NCBI GenBank assembly: GCA_947649625.1
Contig: CANSSJ010000009.1
Location: 1 to 47,769 of the forward strand
Origin: an uncultured Bacillota bacterium
GTDB lineage: Bacteria; Bacillota; Clostridia; Oscillospirales; Oscillospiraceae
Reading direction: 5' to 3'
DNA length: 47,769 nt
Positions 17,080 to 20,265 of the stretch are shown in pieces. The translations under genes and the position numbers were made by a program. Below the pieces are notes generated by a model. The model saw only the letters and a program-made list of their open reading frames with translations, had not been told where the DNA came from and searched no databases. Every line of letters starts with the position of its first letter. The stretch's first letter is position 1.

Positions 17080-18180
17080 TTACTTCGCGTAGGACCTGCC
17101 GGTGTCGATGGTCACCTTGCCGCCCTCGTAGCCCACATAGAAGTCCAGGGCCTTGCCCAGGTCCCGGAGCTTGAAATAGTTGCTCCCGCCGATCTTGTAG
17201 ACGGTCAGGCTGGCCTCTGTCCCGTCGATGACGATGGAATCGTTGGAACGGGAGGCGGTCTTGCTTTCAGAGGGCGCGCCAGCCAGCTCCTTGCCGGTGG
17301 CTTCGTATGGCTGGCCGGAGGTCACCGTCACCTTGCCGCCGCTGTAACCCACAGCGAACTGCTTCCCGGTGCCGTTGAGGACGGCGGCCACGTCACGGAT
17401 TTTGAAGTAGTTGCTGCCGCCGATCTTGTACACGGTGGGGCTCTGCTCCGCGCCGTTCACCATCAGCTTGTCGTTGGTGGGGTTGGCGGTCTTGACCCCG
17501 GCGGGCTGCTCGGGCTGGGGCGGCGTGGTGGGCTGGGAGGTATTACCTACGAGAATGGCACAGCTCCAGTCATCACCCGATACAACTACAAGAGTATTGG
17601 GGCCAAACATTTCCAGCAACGTGTCAGCGGACAACTTAGCCGCTGTCGTTTCAACTAACTTATAGTTTGAATCCATGTATGGCATATCGAAGCTAATGCC
17701 TGACCCATCAGGCCAGTGATTGAGATAAAATTGGTCGTTCATCCCCGAAGCAGTAACATGTAGGGGACCAGCGGTGTCGGCCGGCCAAAGAACATAATCT
17801 TCCTCGAACGACCACACTCGACCGTCATACACGCCGTCTCCCTCCGGGTCCGACCACGCTTCCAAGCCGAAGAAATGGAACTCCTCTCCGCCCTTGGTAA
17901 ATACCATTGTGTCACCCTTTGAGACTACGTACAAATTTGACACCGTATACGCATGGCTGTCTGTTTTGGTCAAGGACACCATCGAATATCCATCTTCATT
18001 TTCATAGGGATCAGAGAGATTCCAGTCGCGGACGGTAAATGTTCTTTCGCCCACATAAGCGTTGGGCTTGCCAGACACTTCCAGCTTGTAATTTGATTCC
18101 GCCGCAAATGCGGGGGCGGCCAATGCCAGGGAAAGTGCAAACGCCAGGGTCAGGGAAAACGCTTTTTTCAGTTTTCTCAT
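17080..18180 (-). CDS. Secreted protein with C-terminal stalk modules
   Basis: A 366-residue exported protein. Residues 1-27 are a signal peptide (RKLKK, hydrophobic core, AFA-AE). Residues 28-215 form a domain not recognised, rich in aromatic and acidic residues, with FTKGGEEFHFFG and HWPDGSGISFDM. After a TTPPQPEQPAG linker come two stalk modules (about residues 240-366). The stalk part is almost identical to that of the NlpC-like protein at 14.5-15.5 kb, but there it is N-terminal and here C-terminal. A surface-binding or sensor role is likely; no catalytic residues are obvious. The unknown N-terminal half is more A/T-rich in codon choice than its neighbours (for example 17560-17780), which may mean separate origin. 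Confidence 0.78.
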   Translation of the reverse strand: MRKLKKAFSLTLAFALSLALAAPAFAAESNYKLEVSGKPNAYVGERTFTVRDWNLSDPYENEDGYSMVSLTKTDSHAYTVSNLYVVSKGDTMVFTKGGEEFHFFGLEAWSDPEGDGVYDGRVWSFEEDYVLWPADTAGPLHVTASGMNDQFYLNHWPDGSGISFDMPYMDSNYKLVETTAAKLSADTLLEMFGPNTLVVVSGDDWSCAILVGNTSQPTTPPQPEQPAGVKTANPTNDKLMVNGAEQSPTVYKIGGSNYFKIRDVAAVLNGTGKQFAVGYSGGKVTVTSGQPYEATGKELAGAPSESKTASRSNDSIVIDGTEASLTVYKIGGSNYFKLRDLGKALDFYVGYEGGKVTIDTGRSYAK

Positions 18181-18212
18181 GGTTTGTACCTCTCTTTCTT
18201 TCTGAACGCCTT

Positions 18213-18286
18213 ATCCTTTGCATTGCAAAGGATAGAAAGGCGCCTTTCTATCCTTTGCATTGCAAAGGATAGAAAGGCGCCTTTCT
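18213..18286. repeat. Two tandem 37-bp units, each made of two palindromes
   Basis: The unit at 18213-18249 is repeated exactly at 18250-18286. Each contains a 21-bp palindrome (ATCCTTTGCA, one base, TGCAAAGGAT) and a perfect 16-bp palindrome AGAAAGGCGCCTTTCT. The block lies between the predicted promoter and the start codon of the secreted protein gene, so it would be transcribed into a leader of alternating hairpins. Confidence 0.85.
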
Positions 18287-18352: not shown

Positions 18353-18381
18353 TTGACCCGGCTGTCGAAGCATGGTATATT
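18353..18381 (+). promoter_or_regulatory. Strong promoter of the 20-codon ORF
   Basis: TTGACC at 18353-18358 and TATATT at 18376-18381 are separated by 17 bp, with TGG just before the -10 (extended -10). Predicted start is near 18388. Confidence 0.7.
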
Positions 18382-18423
18382 TTTGTAAGGACGCTGTCCA
18401 ATACAGGCGAGGCGGTTCAGCTA

Positions 18424-18442
18424 CACCACCCGAAAGGGGGTG
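18424..18442 (+). promoter_or_regulatory. Hairpin sequestering the ribosome binding site of the 20-codon ORF
   Basis: CACCACCC pairs with GGGGGTG (one bulged A) around a GAAA tetraloop. The right arm is the Shine-Dalgarno sequence (AAAGGGGGTGA) of the ORF at 18448, so translation would be inhibited when it is folded. Confidence 0.6.
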
Positions 18443-18447
18443 AGCGT

Positions 18448-18510
18448 ATGCCAATCACAGTTACATTCCACATCTTCGGTTGTACTGTGACCATACGTAT
18501 AAAACGCTGA
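18448..18510 (+). CDS. 20-residue peptide, candidate type I toxin (unknown)
   Basis: A 63-base ORF coding MPITVTFHIF followed by GCTVTIRIKR. The peptide alternates polar Thr/His with bulky hydrophobic residues and ends in a basic tail, so it looks like a short amphipathic strand or membrane-active peptide. I do not recognise the family. It is supported by its setting: an extended -10 promoter 66 bases upstream, a very strong ribosome binding site held in a hairpin, a hairpin starting at the stop codon, and a consensus promoter facing it from the other strand. That arrangement resembles type I toxin-antitoxin pairs such as txpA/ratA and bsrG/SR4, where the antisense RNA overlaps the toxin mRNA 3' end. 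Toxicity is inference only. Confidence 0.6.
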   Translation: MPITVTFHIFGCTVTIRIKR

Positions 18511-18592
18511 AAACCGCCACCCCGGAACGGTGACGGTTTTCTCTTGAAAATCTAAACCCCGGGCTGAACCGTCTTGCGGACGGCGTCCCTCT
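18505..18592 (-). ncRNA. Candidate antisense RNA facing the 20-codon ORF
   Basis: The perfect promoter at 18599-18627 reads toward the small ORF. The predicted transcript of about 85 nt would begin near 18592, form a 5' hairpin (CCGTC with GACGG, about 18570-18584) and end at the hairpin of 18510-18543, so it overlaps the 3' end of the ORF transcript. No ORF with a ribosome binding site lies on it. Confidence 0.45.
18510..18543. terminator. Hairpin terminator shared by the small ORF and the facing RNA
   Basis: AAAACCGCCACC pairs with GGTGACGGTTTT (one mismatch). On the plus strand TTTTCTCTT follows; on the reverse strand TTTTCAGCGTTTT follows. The stem begins at the ORF's stop codon. Confidence 0.7.
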
Positions 18593-18598
18593 ATATTT

Positions 18599-18627
18599 AT
18601 TATACCTCCGCCCTGACAGTTTGTCAA
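18599..18627 (-). promoter_or_regulatory. Perfect consensus promoter directed toward the 20-codon ORF
   Basis: Reverse-strand TTGACA, 17 bp, TATAAT: both hexamers match consensus exactly. The -35 box is part of the stem of the plus-strand terminator at 18609-18638. No protein gene lies immediately downstream on this strand, which is why it is taken as an RNA promoter. Confidence 0.75.
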
Positions 18628-18638
18628 GGCGGTTTTTT
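18609..18638 (+). terminator. Second plus-strand terminator after the small ORF
   Basis: CCGCC-TGAC and GTCA-GGCGG arms around a short loop, followed by TTTTTT on the plus strand. It would stop read-through of the small ORF transcript into the antisense of the gamma-glutamyltransferase gene. In the other direction it may help end that gene, though no U-run follows there. Confidence 0.7.
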
Positions 18639-20265
18639 ACCACGCCGCAATGGTCCCGTCGCACCGGGGCTCGGTGCCGCCGATGAGCAGGCCGTTCTCG
18701 GTCCTCCAGATGATCTGCCCCCGGCCCATGTCGATCCGGTCGTCGATGACCTCCACCTGGTGGCCCATTTCGGCCAGAGCTTCGGCGATCTCCGGCCCGG
18801 CCTCCCGCTCCAGCTGGATATGCTTCCCCCCGACCCACTGCACCCGGGGGGCGTCCAGGGCCTCCTGGGGGTTCATATGGTAGTCGATGGTGTTCACCAG
18901 CACCTCCACGTGCCCCTGGGGCTGCATAAAGGCCCCCATCACCCCGAAGGGGCCAACGGCCTCCCCGTCCTTCATCAAAAACCCGGGGACGATGGTGTGG
19001 TAGGACTTCTTCCCCCCGGCAAGGCAGTTGTCGCTCTCCGGGTCCAGGGAGAAGTTGGCCCCCCGGTTTTGCAGGGAGATGCCCGTCCCGGGAATCGCCA
19101 CCCCCGCGCCGAAGGTGGTGTAATTGCTCTGGATCCAGGACACCATGTTGCCCTCAGAATCGGCGGTACACAGGTAGATGGTGCCCCCGCAGGAGGGGTC
19201 CCCCGCCTCGGGGGTGAGGGCTCGGTCGGTGATGAGGCCCCGCCGGCGGGCGGTGTACTCCTCGGACAGCATGTCCTCCACCTTTGTCCGCATGTACCGG
19301 GGGTCGGCCACGTAGGTCTTTGTGTCGGCGAAGGCCAGCTTGATGGCCTCCATGATCTTGTGGTAGGTGTCGGCGCTCTCCCGCTCGGGAGACAGCTCCA
19401 GTCCGTTGAGGATATTCAGCGCCATCAGCACGGTGATCCCGTGGCCGTTGGGCGGGATCTCGCAGACGGTGTACCCCCGGTAATCGGCGGTGATGGGTTC
19501 CACCCACTCCGGGCGGTAATTGCGGAAGTCCTCCTCGGTGAAGTATCCCCCCGTCTCCCGGCTGAACGCCACGATCTTCTCCATCAGCGGCCCCCGGTAG
19601 TAGCTCTCGCAGCCGGTGGCGGCCAGCTCCTCCAGGGTGTCGGCGTACTCCTCCCACCGGAACAGGTCCCCCGCCCCGTAGGGGCTCCCGTCCTCCTTCA
19701 TGAAGGACTTCCACCAATAGGCGTAGGGCGCGGGGTCGGCCTCCATGGCCTTTTTGATCCGCCGGGAGTCCCTGGCCCACTGAAAGGCTACATTAACGGG
19801 GACCGGCGCCCCCTGCCGGGCGTAGCGAACAGCTGGGGCGAACAGCTCATCCAGCGGCTTTGTTCCAAACCGCCGGTTGAGCTCCGCCCATCCGGCGGGA
19901 GCCCCGGGGACCATGGTGGGCAGCCAGCCAGCCTTGGGCATCTCTGTAAAGCCTGATTCCCTTACGGTATCTGCACTGAGGGCCGCCGGGGCCACTCCGC
20001 TGGCGTTGAGGCCATAGAGGCGTTTCTCCTTCTCCACCCACACCAGGGCAAAGGCGTCGGAGCCCAGACCGTTCCCCGTGGGCTCAAAGAGGGGCATCCC
20101 CGCCGCCATCGCCACGGCGGCGTCCATGGCGTTGCCGCCGTTTTTCAGCACCTCCAGCCCCACCTGAGCCCCCAGGGGCACCGAGGTGCAGGCCATCCCG
20201 TTTCTGGCATAGACCACATTTCTCCGGGAAGGGTATGTATACTTGCAGGGGTCAAACCGGGGCAT
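18637..20265 (-). CDS. Gamma-glutamyltransferase family protein
   Basis: A 542-residue member of the Ntn-hydrolase gamma-glutamyltransferase family, which cleaves gamma-glutamyl bonds (glutathione, gamma-glutamyl peptides) after self-cleavage at a conserved Thr. Family landmarks are GGNAMDAAVAMA near residue 45, PTGNGLGSDAF, the proposed nucleophile region CGGTIYLCTADSEGNMVSWIQS with the Thr of GGT as cleavage point, and GGKKSYHTIVPGF with PFGVMGAFMQPQGH. There is no signal peptide, so it is probably cytoplasmic, unlike secreted GGTs; this resembles the YwrD-type branch. The ribosome binding site is TAAGGAGATGAGG. The actual substrate is not known. Confidence 0.88.
   Translation of the reverse strand: MPRFDPCKYTYPSRRNVVYARNGMACTSVPLGAQVGLEVLKNGGNAMDAAVAMAAGMPLFEPTGNGLGSDAFALVWVEKEKRLYGLNASGVAPAALSADTVRESGFTEMPKAGWLPTMVPGAPAGWAELNRRFGTKPLDELFAPAVRYARQGAPVPVNVAFQWARDSRRIKKAMEADPAPYAYWWKSFMKEDGSPYGAGDLFRWEEYADTLEELAATGCESYYRGPLMEKIVAFSRETGGYFTEEDFRNYRPEWVEPITADYRGYTVCEIPPNGHGITVLMALNILNGLELSPERESADTYHKIMEAIKLAFADTKTYVADPRYMRTKVEDMLSEEYTARRRGLITDRALTPEAGDPSCGGTIYLCTADSEGNMVSWIQSNYTTFGAGVAIPGTGISLQNRGANFSLDPESDNCLAGGKKSYHTIVPGFLMKDGEAVGPFGVMGAFMQPQGHVEVLVNTIDYHMNPQEALDAPRVQWVGGKHIQLEREAGPEIAEALAEMGHQVEVIDDRIDMGRGQIIWRTENGLLIGGTEPRCDGTIAAW

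Follow-up and report, generated by a model that had tools for sequence, protein, structure and literature searches.

Elements of the locus

The window, meaning the whole 47,769-nucleotide stretch of DNA analysed here, contains a 20-codon ORF enclosed by two convergent promoter-like sequences. A direct sequence check located every element that the earlier note had listed at this locus. The long 5'-3' helix formed by 18389-18421 and 18563-18588 (P1/P2) was absent from that description. The elements are as follows, with P1 to P4 denoting RNA helices.

18353..18381, plus strand: toxin mRNA promoter, TTGACC-17-TATATT, with TG one base ahead of the -10 box (TG-extended)
18388..18592, plus strand: predicted toxin mRNA, its 5' end placed by the promoter and its 3' end by P1b and the family U-tract
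18389..18399, plus strand: P1a, 5' arm of the 5'-3' terminal helix, from covariation
18406..18421, plus strand: P2a, second 5' arm of the 5'-3' helix, from covariation and the cognate duplex test
18424..18442, plus strand: P3, a hairpin with a GAAA loop that hides the Shine-Dalgarno sequence (SD) AAAGGGGGTGA, from the fold and pair counts
18448..18510, plus strand: 20-codon ORF for the putative toxin MPITVTFHIFGCTVTIRIKR, beta-hairpin-like, with its ATG at 18448 and its stop codon at 18508-18510
18510..18540, minus strand: P4, a hairpin and predicted terminator of the antisense RNA, with a U-tract that continues to about 18498
18563..18577, plus strand: P2b, 3' arm of the 5'-3' helix, from covariation
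18578..18588, plus strand: P1b, outermost 3' arm of the 5'-3' helix, from covariation
18498..18592, minus strand: predicted antisense (antitoxin) RNA of about 90 nt, matched by covariance model R1 at 18509-18595
18599..18627, minus strand: facing promoter of the antitoxin RNA, TTGACA-17-TATAAT, conserved across copies
18608..18638, plus strand: inverted repeat with a T-run, a possible mRNA terminator that overlaps the facing promoter

The region contains five promoter-like sites against 0.5 expected from shuffles, and three terminator-like sites against 0.7. In many copies of the locus, a promoter-like sequence is placed similarly to the toxin mRNA promoter. For the predicted mRNA (18388-18592) the folding energy is -97 kcal/mol, compared with -59.3 +/- 4.7 kcal/mol for shuffled sequences (z -8.06; 0 of 200 shuffles as good). 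This fold joins the two ends of the RNA in one long helix (P1, P2) and places P4 after the stop codon.

The neighbouring gene at 18637-20265, on the minus strand, encodes a gamma-glutamyltranspeptidase (PF01019, E 2.4e-146). At 18212-18285, just upstream of a 366-aa minus-strand ORF (17080-18180), lie two perfect head-to-tail copies of a largely palindromic 37-nt unit, TATCCTTTGCATTGCAAAGGATAGAAAGGCGCCTTTC.

A short ORF followed by a hairpin has the classic look of an attenuator, and the locus might be a leader-peptide attenuator or another cis-regulator of a neighbouring gene. This reading is extremely improbable. The long ORFs on either side in the window both read from the minus strand, which means that a transcript of the ORF meets the gamma-glutamyltranspeptidase gene at its 3' end. 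A consensus promoter also faces the ORF. Copies of the locus also occur in varied contexts, including clusters and phage-like contigs.

The peptide

Relatives of the ORF occur across gut Clostridia. A total of 176 copies of the locus were collected, of which 159 are unique, and 144 distinct 19-codon ORFs were analysed. In copies derived from the search pattern, which covers the ribosome binding site (RBS) and the first eight codons, codons 2-8 are fixed or narrowed by that pattern. Codons 9-19 alone are therefore a free test in these copies, and the conservation of peptide positions 2-8 and of the SD arm of P3 is partly by construction.

Over codons 9-19 the pN/pS ratio is 0.29 (144 distinct ORFs; 775 pairs, which are not phylogenetically independent), and mean entropy rises from 0.61 bits at the second codon position to 1.03 at the first and 1.69 at the third. 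The window ORF and the copy on contig C7 of the same genome differ at 8 of 60 nucleotides, all silent, and their peptides are 100% identical. These values point to protein-level purifying selection on a small ORF (under 60 aa).

The earlier note had called the peptide strand-like, and the alternation of hydrophobic and polar residues across the family agrees with this at the level of sequence. Of the free positions, 9, 12, 14, 16, and 18 hold a hydrophobic residue in 99-100% of ORFs, and 11, 13, 15, 17, and 19 do so in 0-3%. At the positions narrowed by the pattern, the figure is 100% for 3, 5, and 7 and 0% for 4, 6, and 8, which is the opposite phase to that of 9-19. A phase shift at 10-11 fits a two-residue turn, which would place the hydrophobic residues of both strands on one face. 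Peptides found through the RNA alone, with no ORF pattern (MRITLHIGxFTVTIIVK and others), alternate likewise. By its residue pattern, the window peptide fits an amphipathic beta-hairpin with a basic tail. The transmembrane helix that is usual for type I toxins is absent from it, as its residues alternate between hydrophobic and polar.

Searches of Pfam, NCBIfam, and PHROGs gave nothing above cut-off for the four family peptides scanned, the window peptide had no match to Hol_Tox (PF16935), and the peptide profile had no match among PDB sequences. Membership of TFHVFGLTITVT in the YrzI family (PF09501, TIGR02413) was considered and rejected, with E-values of 0.019 and 0.045 that fall far below both cut-offs. 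The PF09501 score was 15.5 bits against a cut-off of 23 in one of the four peptides, with no match for the window peptide, and across the window's own genome this model gave a single chance-level match (E 5.96).

Spread and copies of the family

The earlier note had held that a lack of any peptide conservation would argue against a gene. The peptide is conserved, with 13 of 60 genomes (own included) matching at E <= 0.1, all of the window's own genus. When genomes are drawn evenly, the peptide profile matches 30 of 150 genomes of the family (own included). In the wider draws, 291 genomes from the class and 119 from the phylum, the own genome is the sole match. On these sequence counts, the peptide family is locally common and globally rare. 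At least 119 stretches in named genome contigs match the pattern of RBS and first eight codons, and depositor labels among the matches listed include Lachnospiraceae, Oscillospiraceae, Ruminococcaceae, Lawsonibacter, Evtepia, Faecalibacterium, and Blautia. Two culturable strains carry copies, Evtepia gabavorous KLE1738 (in L073) and Faecalibacterium prausnitzii ATCC 27768 (in L111).

In its own genome, the window copy is accompanied by three others at E < 0.001 in a DNA search, and protein and profile searches likewise give four full-ORF copies, on contigs C9, C7, C12, and C5. A fifth copy in this genome (L179, C81:4523-4603, minus strand) has lost its 5' half, including the mRNA promoter, RBS, and start codon. 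This remnant retains P4, P2b, P1b, and a facing promoter-like sequence scoring 10/12, and is thus an orphan antitoxin-like element. One genome carries nine copies of the peptide locus, including a tandem triplet, and clustered same-strand copies occur in nine places.

Five viral contigs also match the pattern of RBS and first eight codons. In the three of them whose flanking genes were scanned, the beta-peptide cassette lies near a terminase large subunit gene in L173, near a helicase/primase gene in L175, and beside an anti-repressor gene in L176. From these gene contexts, some beta-peptide cassettes ride on phage-like DNA. Phage records gave two matches, both unannotated faecal records, and plasmids gave a single match to the peptide (E 0.02), on an 860-kb Vescimonas replicon.

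RNA structure and transcript ends

Given only the alignment of 45 copies, RNAalifold recovers P2, P4, and some of P3. Over the full structure, 90.6% of cells are paired and 198 cell changes are two-sided, compared with 67.9 in shuffled alignments. Covariation of the full structure is 0.366, compared with 0.210 when shuffled and 0.08-0.14 when slid, and P1 has two-sided changes in eight of its nine pairs. The count of further pair types (59) says less, as 33 of 500 shuffles reach it and it is not clearly above chance. Compared free of any alignment, the leader-tail duplex averages -46.0 kcal/mol for cognate and -31.3 kcal/mol for non-cognate partners; the cognate duplex ranks first in 31 of 64 loci, with a lowest rank of 18th. 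Taken together, covariation supports the predicted SD hairpin, P4, and the long 5'-3' helix.

The earlier note's proposal that the RBS is hidden is supported at the sequence level by P3, in which 93% of cells are paired, the SD arm being partly set by the search pattern. The mean unpaired probability of the SD is 0.06 over 48 copies. Its predicted accessibility is barely altered by the state of the 3' UTR (0.06 / 0.05 / 0.05 with the 3' UTR intact and when it is cut or blocked, over the 48 copies), a result that weighs against the model of a type I module.

In 44 of 45 aligned copies, one mismatch of P4 reads C.A in the sense RNA and G.U in the antisense RNA, and in the family alignment a conserved U-tract follows P4 on the antisense strand only. 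Because of this asymmetry, P4 has the look of an antisense terminator. The earlier assignment of this stop-codon hairpin as the mRNA's own end is probably wrong, since the U-tract and the G.U pair favour the antisense strand. With P4 as the antisense terminator, the mRNA therefore probably reads through it to at least 18588. On the sense strand, 35 of 45 copies have at least three T in the five nucleotides after P1b. The window copy is among the 10 that lack good Us there (CTCTA), so its mRNA may end at 18608-18638 instead. The second terminator of the earlier note is present as an element at those positions, and as the mRNA end it may hold for the window copy; by a plain count, a similar repeat and T-run occurs in 41 of 156 copies.

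The leader and the 3' part of the mRNA are inverted repeats, and the leader therefore approximates the 5' half of the antitoxin in sequence. P1a and P2a resemble the 5' half of the antitoxin RNA, and in the window copy 23 of 26 aligned bases of leader and antitoxin are identical around one 7-nt gap. At gathering score, Rfam had no match for the window and, for 10 further loci, gave two tRNAs only, both outside the cassette. With the threshold relaxed to E <= 10, the window had a single sub-threshold match, to P31 (14.7 bits against 40).

The facing promoter and its RNA

The facing promoter is kept in relatives, with a score of at least 10/12 in 148 of 156 testable unique copies, at least 11 in 139, and 12/12 in 87. 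On the opposite strand of the same stretch a score of 10 is reached in 9 of the 156 copies, and among 4,456 control windows taken from these loci the share scoring at least 10 is 1.3%. Judged by this conservation, the facing promoter is real. The convergent 3' overlap of the mRNA and the facing RNA, as claimed earlier, is likewise borne out by sequence. The locus thus appears to contain an antisense RNA gene, with a promoter and a terminator, that overlaps the toxin mRNA.

Eight copies have a facing promoter below 10/12 (L021, L031, L066, L082, L092_511, L149, L159, and L167). The ORF is recombined or ends early in L066, L092_511, L159, and L167. L082 and L149 have an intact ORF and a facing promoter of 9/12 that keeps TTGACA. 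L021 has an intact ORF with a facing promoter of 7 and an own promoter of merely 8/12, and L031 has an intact ORF with a facing promoter of 8 and a good own promoter. L021 and L031 count against the antitoxin model unless they are decaying.

Covarying inverted repeats and several copies per genome are also what a non-autonomous, MITE-like mobile element would leave, with P1/P2 as transposon ends and the ORF incidental. This explanation is very unlikely. The repeats lie inside a conserved unit that reaches both -35 boxes (window and C7 copies), and the ORF is under purifying selection. Several loci have the same surroundings in different genomes, as expected of inherited loci, and the U-tracts and C.A/G.U asymmetry fit transcripts rather than transposase sites.

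Other peptides in the same cassette

A pattern made from P4 and P2b alone found nine viral contigs, one of which (L175) was already known, and all nine have a facing promoter of at least 11/12. Seven of the nine contigs encode clear beta-type peptides (six short MRIT[LI]HIG... and one MPITLTF), L191 encodes a divergent beta-type peptide, and the reading frame of L186 breaks off.

R1 is a covariance model of the antitoxin built from 33 sequences of beta-peptide loci only, and its E-values are rough. At E <= 1e-4 it matches 42 of the 101 family genomes and 33 of the 245 genomes from the class; at E <= 1e-6 it matches 2 of 149 from the phylum, own included. A set of 76 R1 sites was inspected, comprising 52 in the 48 best-match loci and 24 chosen mainly for an absent beta peptide, so that the following numbers are no census. 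The facing promoter scores at least 10 in 66 of the 76 sites and below 10 in the other 10. The sites contain 24 beta peptides (three of them, of MKRLTL type, assigned by eye), 37 transmembrane-like peptides, 2 other ORFs, and 13 cases with no rule-passing ORF. Among 76 individual R1 matches in the best-match loci, 23 fall on the sense strand of the same loci, 20 of them over the whole model, in part because P4 is near-palindromic.

The own genome has four R1 loci with a transmembrane facing ORF (contigs C4, C113, C17, and C11). Those on C4, C113, and C17 encode MVTYSDLF-like transmembrane peptides. On C11 the peptide is read as MRLDDGRWTKVLRFVVCAIITALLLILTAPNAC, and the automatic choice is an overlapping ORF. 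The automatic ORF choice at L005 is probably wrong as well, and an overlapping transmembrane ORF there has a good RBS. The C113 locus (L241, C113:775-1004, minus strand) has two tandem antitoxin-model matches, the first with a complete MVTYGELFQ... ORF and the second with an ORF tail only and a facing promoter of 12/12.

Among 20 cassette peptides scanned (19 transmembrane), four, all from other genomes, pass the Hol_Tox cut-off of 23.3 bits: L234 at 45.5, L255 at 30.8, L256 at 30.2, and L231 at 27.6 bits. The facing promoter of L231 is weak (8/12). Four more cassette peptides score 11-18 bits, under the cut-off. The Pfam name of Hol_Tox (PF16935) is 'Putative Holin-like Toxin', and its members are presumably type I toxins that group with the TxpA-like ones. 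In 26 transmembrane-peptide loci the leader-tail helix averages -50.7 for cognate compared with -38.5 for non-cognate partners, and the cognate ranks first in 9 of 26. That the antitoxin model R1 also finds transmembrane-peptide loci is the strongest argument for placing the window peptide in a toxin slot.

Alternatively, the same antisense RNA control could have been borrowed by a small peptide with no toxin role, such as a membrane-stress or signalling micropeptide. In its beta-hairpin pattern the window peptide differs from the type I toxins described in the available text of the reviews, and L021, L031, L082, and L149 keep the ORF without a facing promoter of at least 10/12. Such a peptide is nevertheless unlikely, given that Hol_Tox and other transmembrane toxin-like peptides sit in the same cassette. 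The many divergent, partly clustered copies per genome and the layered silencing suit a toxin over a housekeeping peptide.

Relation to known type I systems

The accessible parts of reviews on type I toxins of Clostridia and on toxin structure describe small hydrophobic membrane peptides, with SymE and RalR as cytosolic exceptions. The txpA/RatA and bsrG/SR4 systems of B. subtilis resemble the window locus in having convergent genes and RNAs that overlap and base-pair at the 3' end (PMC4147584, PMC7430163). The long txpA/RatA duplex is decayed by RNase III (PMC4147584), and the SD of bsrG is partly sequestered (PMC4147584, PMC7430163). The txpA and bsrG toxins are hydrophobic membrane peptides of 29-59 residues, whereas the window peptide has 20 residues and is beta-hairpin-like. 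The leader-antitoxin mimicry of the window family goes unmentioned for either system in the available text of these two papers.

The par/Fst system of pAD1 (RNA I and RNA II), as described in the accessible text of PMC7472228, shares several features with the window family. It has convergent promoters, repeats on both RNAs, an SD within a 5' stem-loop, a sequestered 5' end, and a terminator region shared by position. The par repeats are direct, so that the two RNAs are complementary there, whereas those of the window family are inverted, making leader and antitoxin near-identical (PMC7472228). Both par RNAs share a bidirectional terminator. In the window family, the antisense strand is the only one with a conserved U-tract after P4, and P4 may differ in this respect. 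The window peptide is unlike the described features of Fst in a comparison by description alone (PMC7472228).

The aapA/IsoA system of H. pylori and hok/Sok resemble the window family in a stable long-distance 5'-3' pairing of the full-length mRNA (PMC6733600, accessible text), and aapA is multicopy (PMC6733600). Pairing of this class is present in the window family, where it is predicted and covaries. In aapA and hok, a distal 3' element hides the SD and 3' trimming activates the mRNA (PMC6733600). In the window family, by contrast, P3 hides the SD locally regardless of the 3' end, and the 3' element pairs with the leader.

The peptide strings had no match in the full-text literature searched. 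Likewise, no description of the peptide family was found by titles, abstracts, and passages, in a search with subscription papers mostly outside it. Both the peptide class and the design in which the leader mimics the antitoxin appear undescribed in the databases and literature searched.

Proposed mechanism

The earlier reading of the locus as a type I toxin-antitoxin system is supported by the sequence evidence. The window locus is very probably a type I module with a beta-hairpin-like putative toxin and an antisense antitoxin. Its plus-strand RNA (about 205-250 nt) would encode the 20-residue putative toxin. P3 would lock the SD, and P1 and P2 would zip the leader to the 3' part, giving a stable and poorly translated mRNA. 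By analogy with aapA and hok, this closed form may mainly give stability (PMC6733600).

The facing promoter would drive an antisense RNA of roughly 90 nt that ends at P4 and is complementary to the mRNA 3' of the ORF. Because the leader pairs with the same 3' part, the antitoxin has to displace the leader by strand exchange. The antitoxin, a leader copy plus the P4 complement, would invade the 3' part of the mRNA and form a long duplex subject to RNase III decay, as for txpA/RatA. Should the antitoxin disappear or run short, the remaining mRNA would be translated, perhaps once P3 has been processed or has melted, and the peptide would harm its own cell, most likely at the membrane. The sequences themselves show coding conservation, the facing promoter, covarying helices, and a cassette shared with transmembrane peptides, and we infer transcription, decay, toxicity, and target alike; the target and mode of the peptide are inferences from its amphipathic cationic beta pattern.

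A broader model, put forward tentatively and with chances judged slightly short of even, is that of a modular type I cassette of gut Clostridia. Its mRNA leader would be a co-evolving copy of the antitoxin, and regulation would be strand exchange between this internal copy and the external one. Its toxin slot would be swapped between alpha-helical transmembrane peptides and Thr-rich amphipathic beta-hairpin peptides, which possibly form beta-sheets or barrels in or on the membrane.

If the beta-hairpin peptides (20-31 residues) play the same role as the transmembrane ones, they would form a new toxin class. The cassette would also provide a natural experiment in which a single regulatory RNA architecture serves many toxins, with several co-evolved copies per genome and a sequence common to sense leader and antitoxin. 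R1 offers a covariance model for finding candidate toxin-antitoxin loci in gut Clostridia. In other families of the class, its matches are mostly weaker (L223-L239), and some lie beside very short transmembrane ORFs, such as MKQFLRIIFLTILFLVIFTIKAV, which are possibly further unnamed toxin families.
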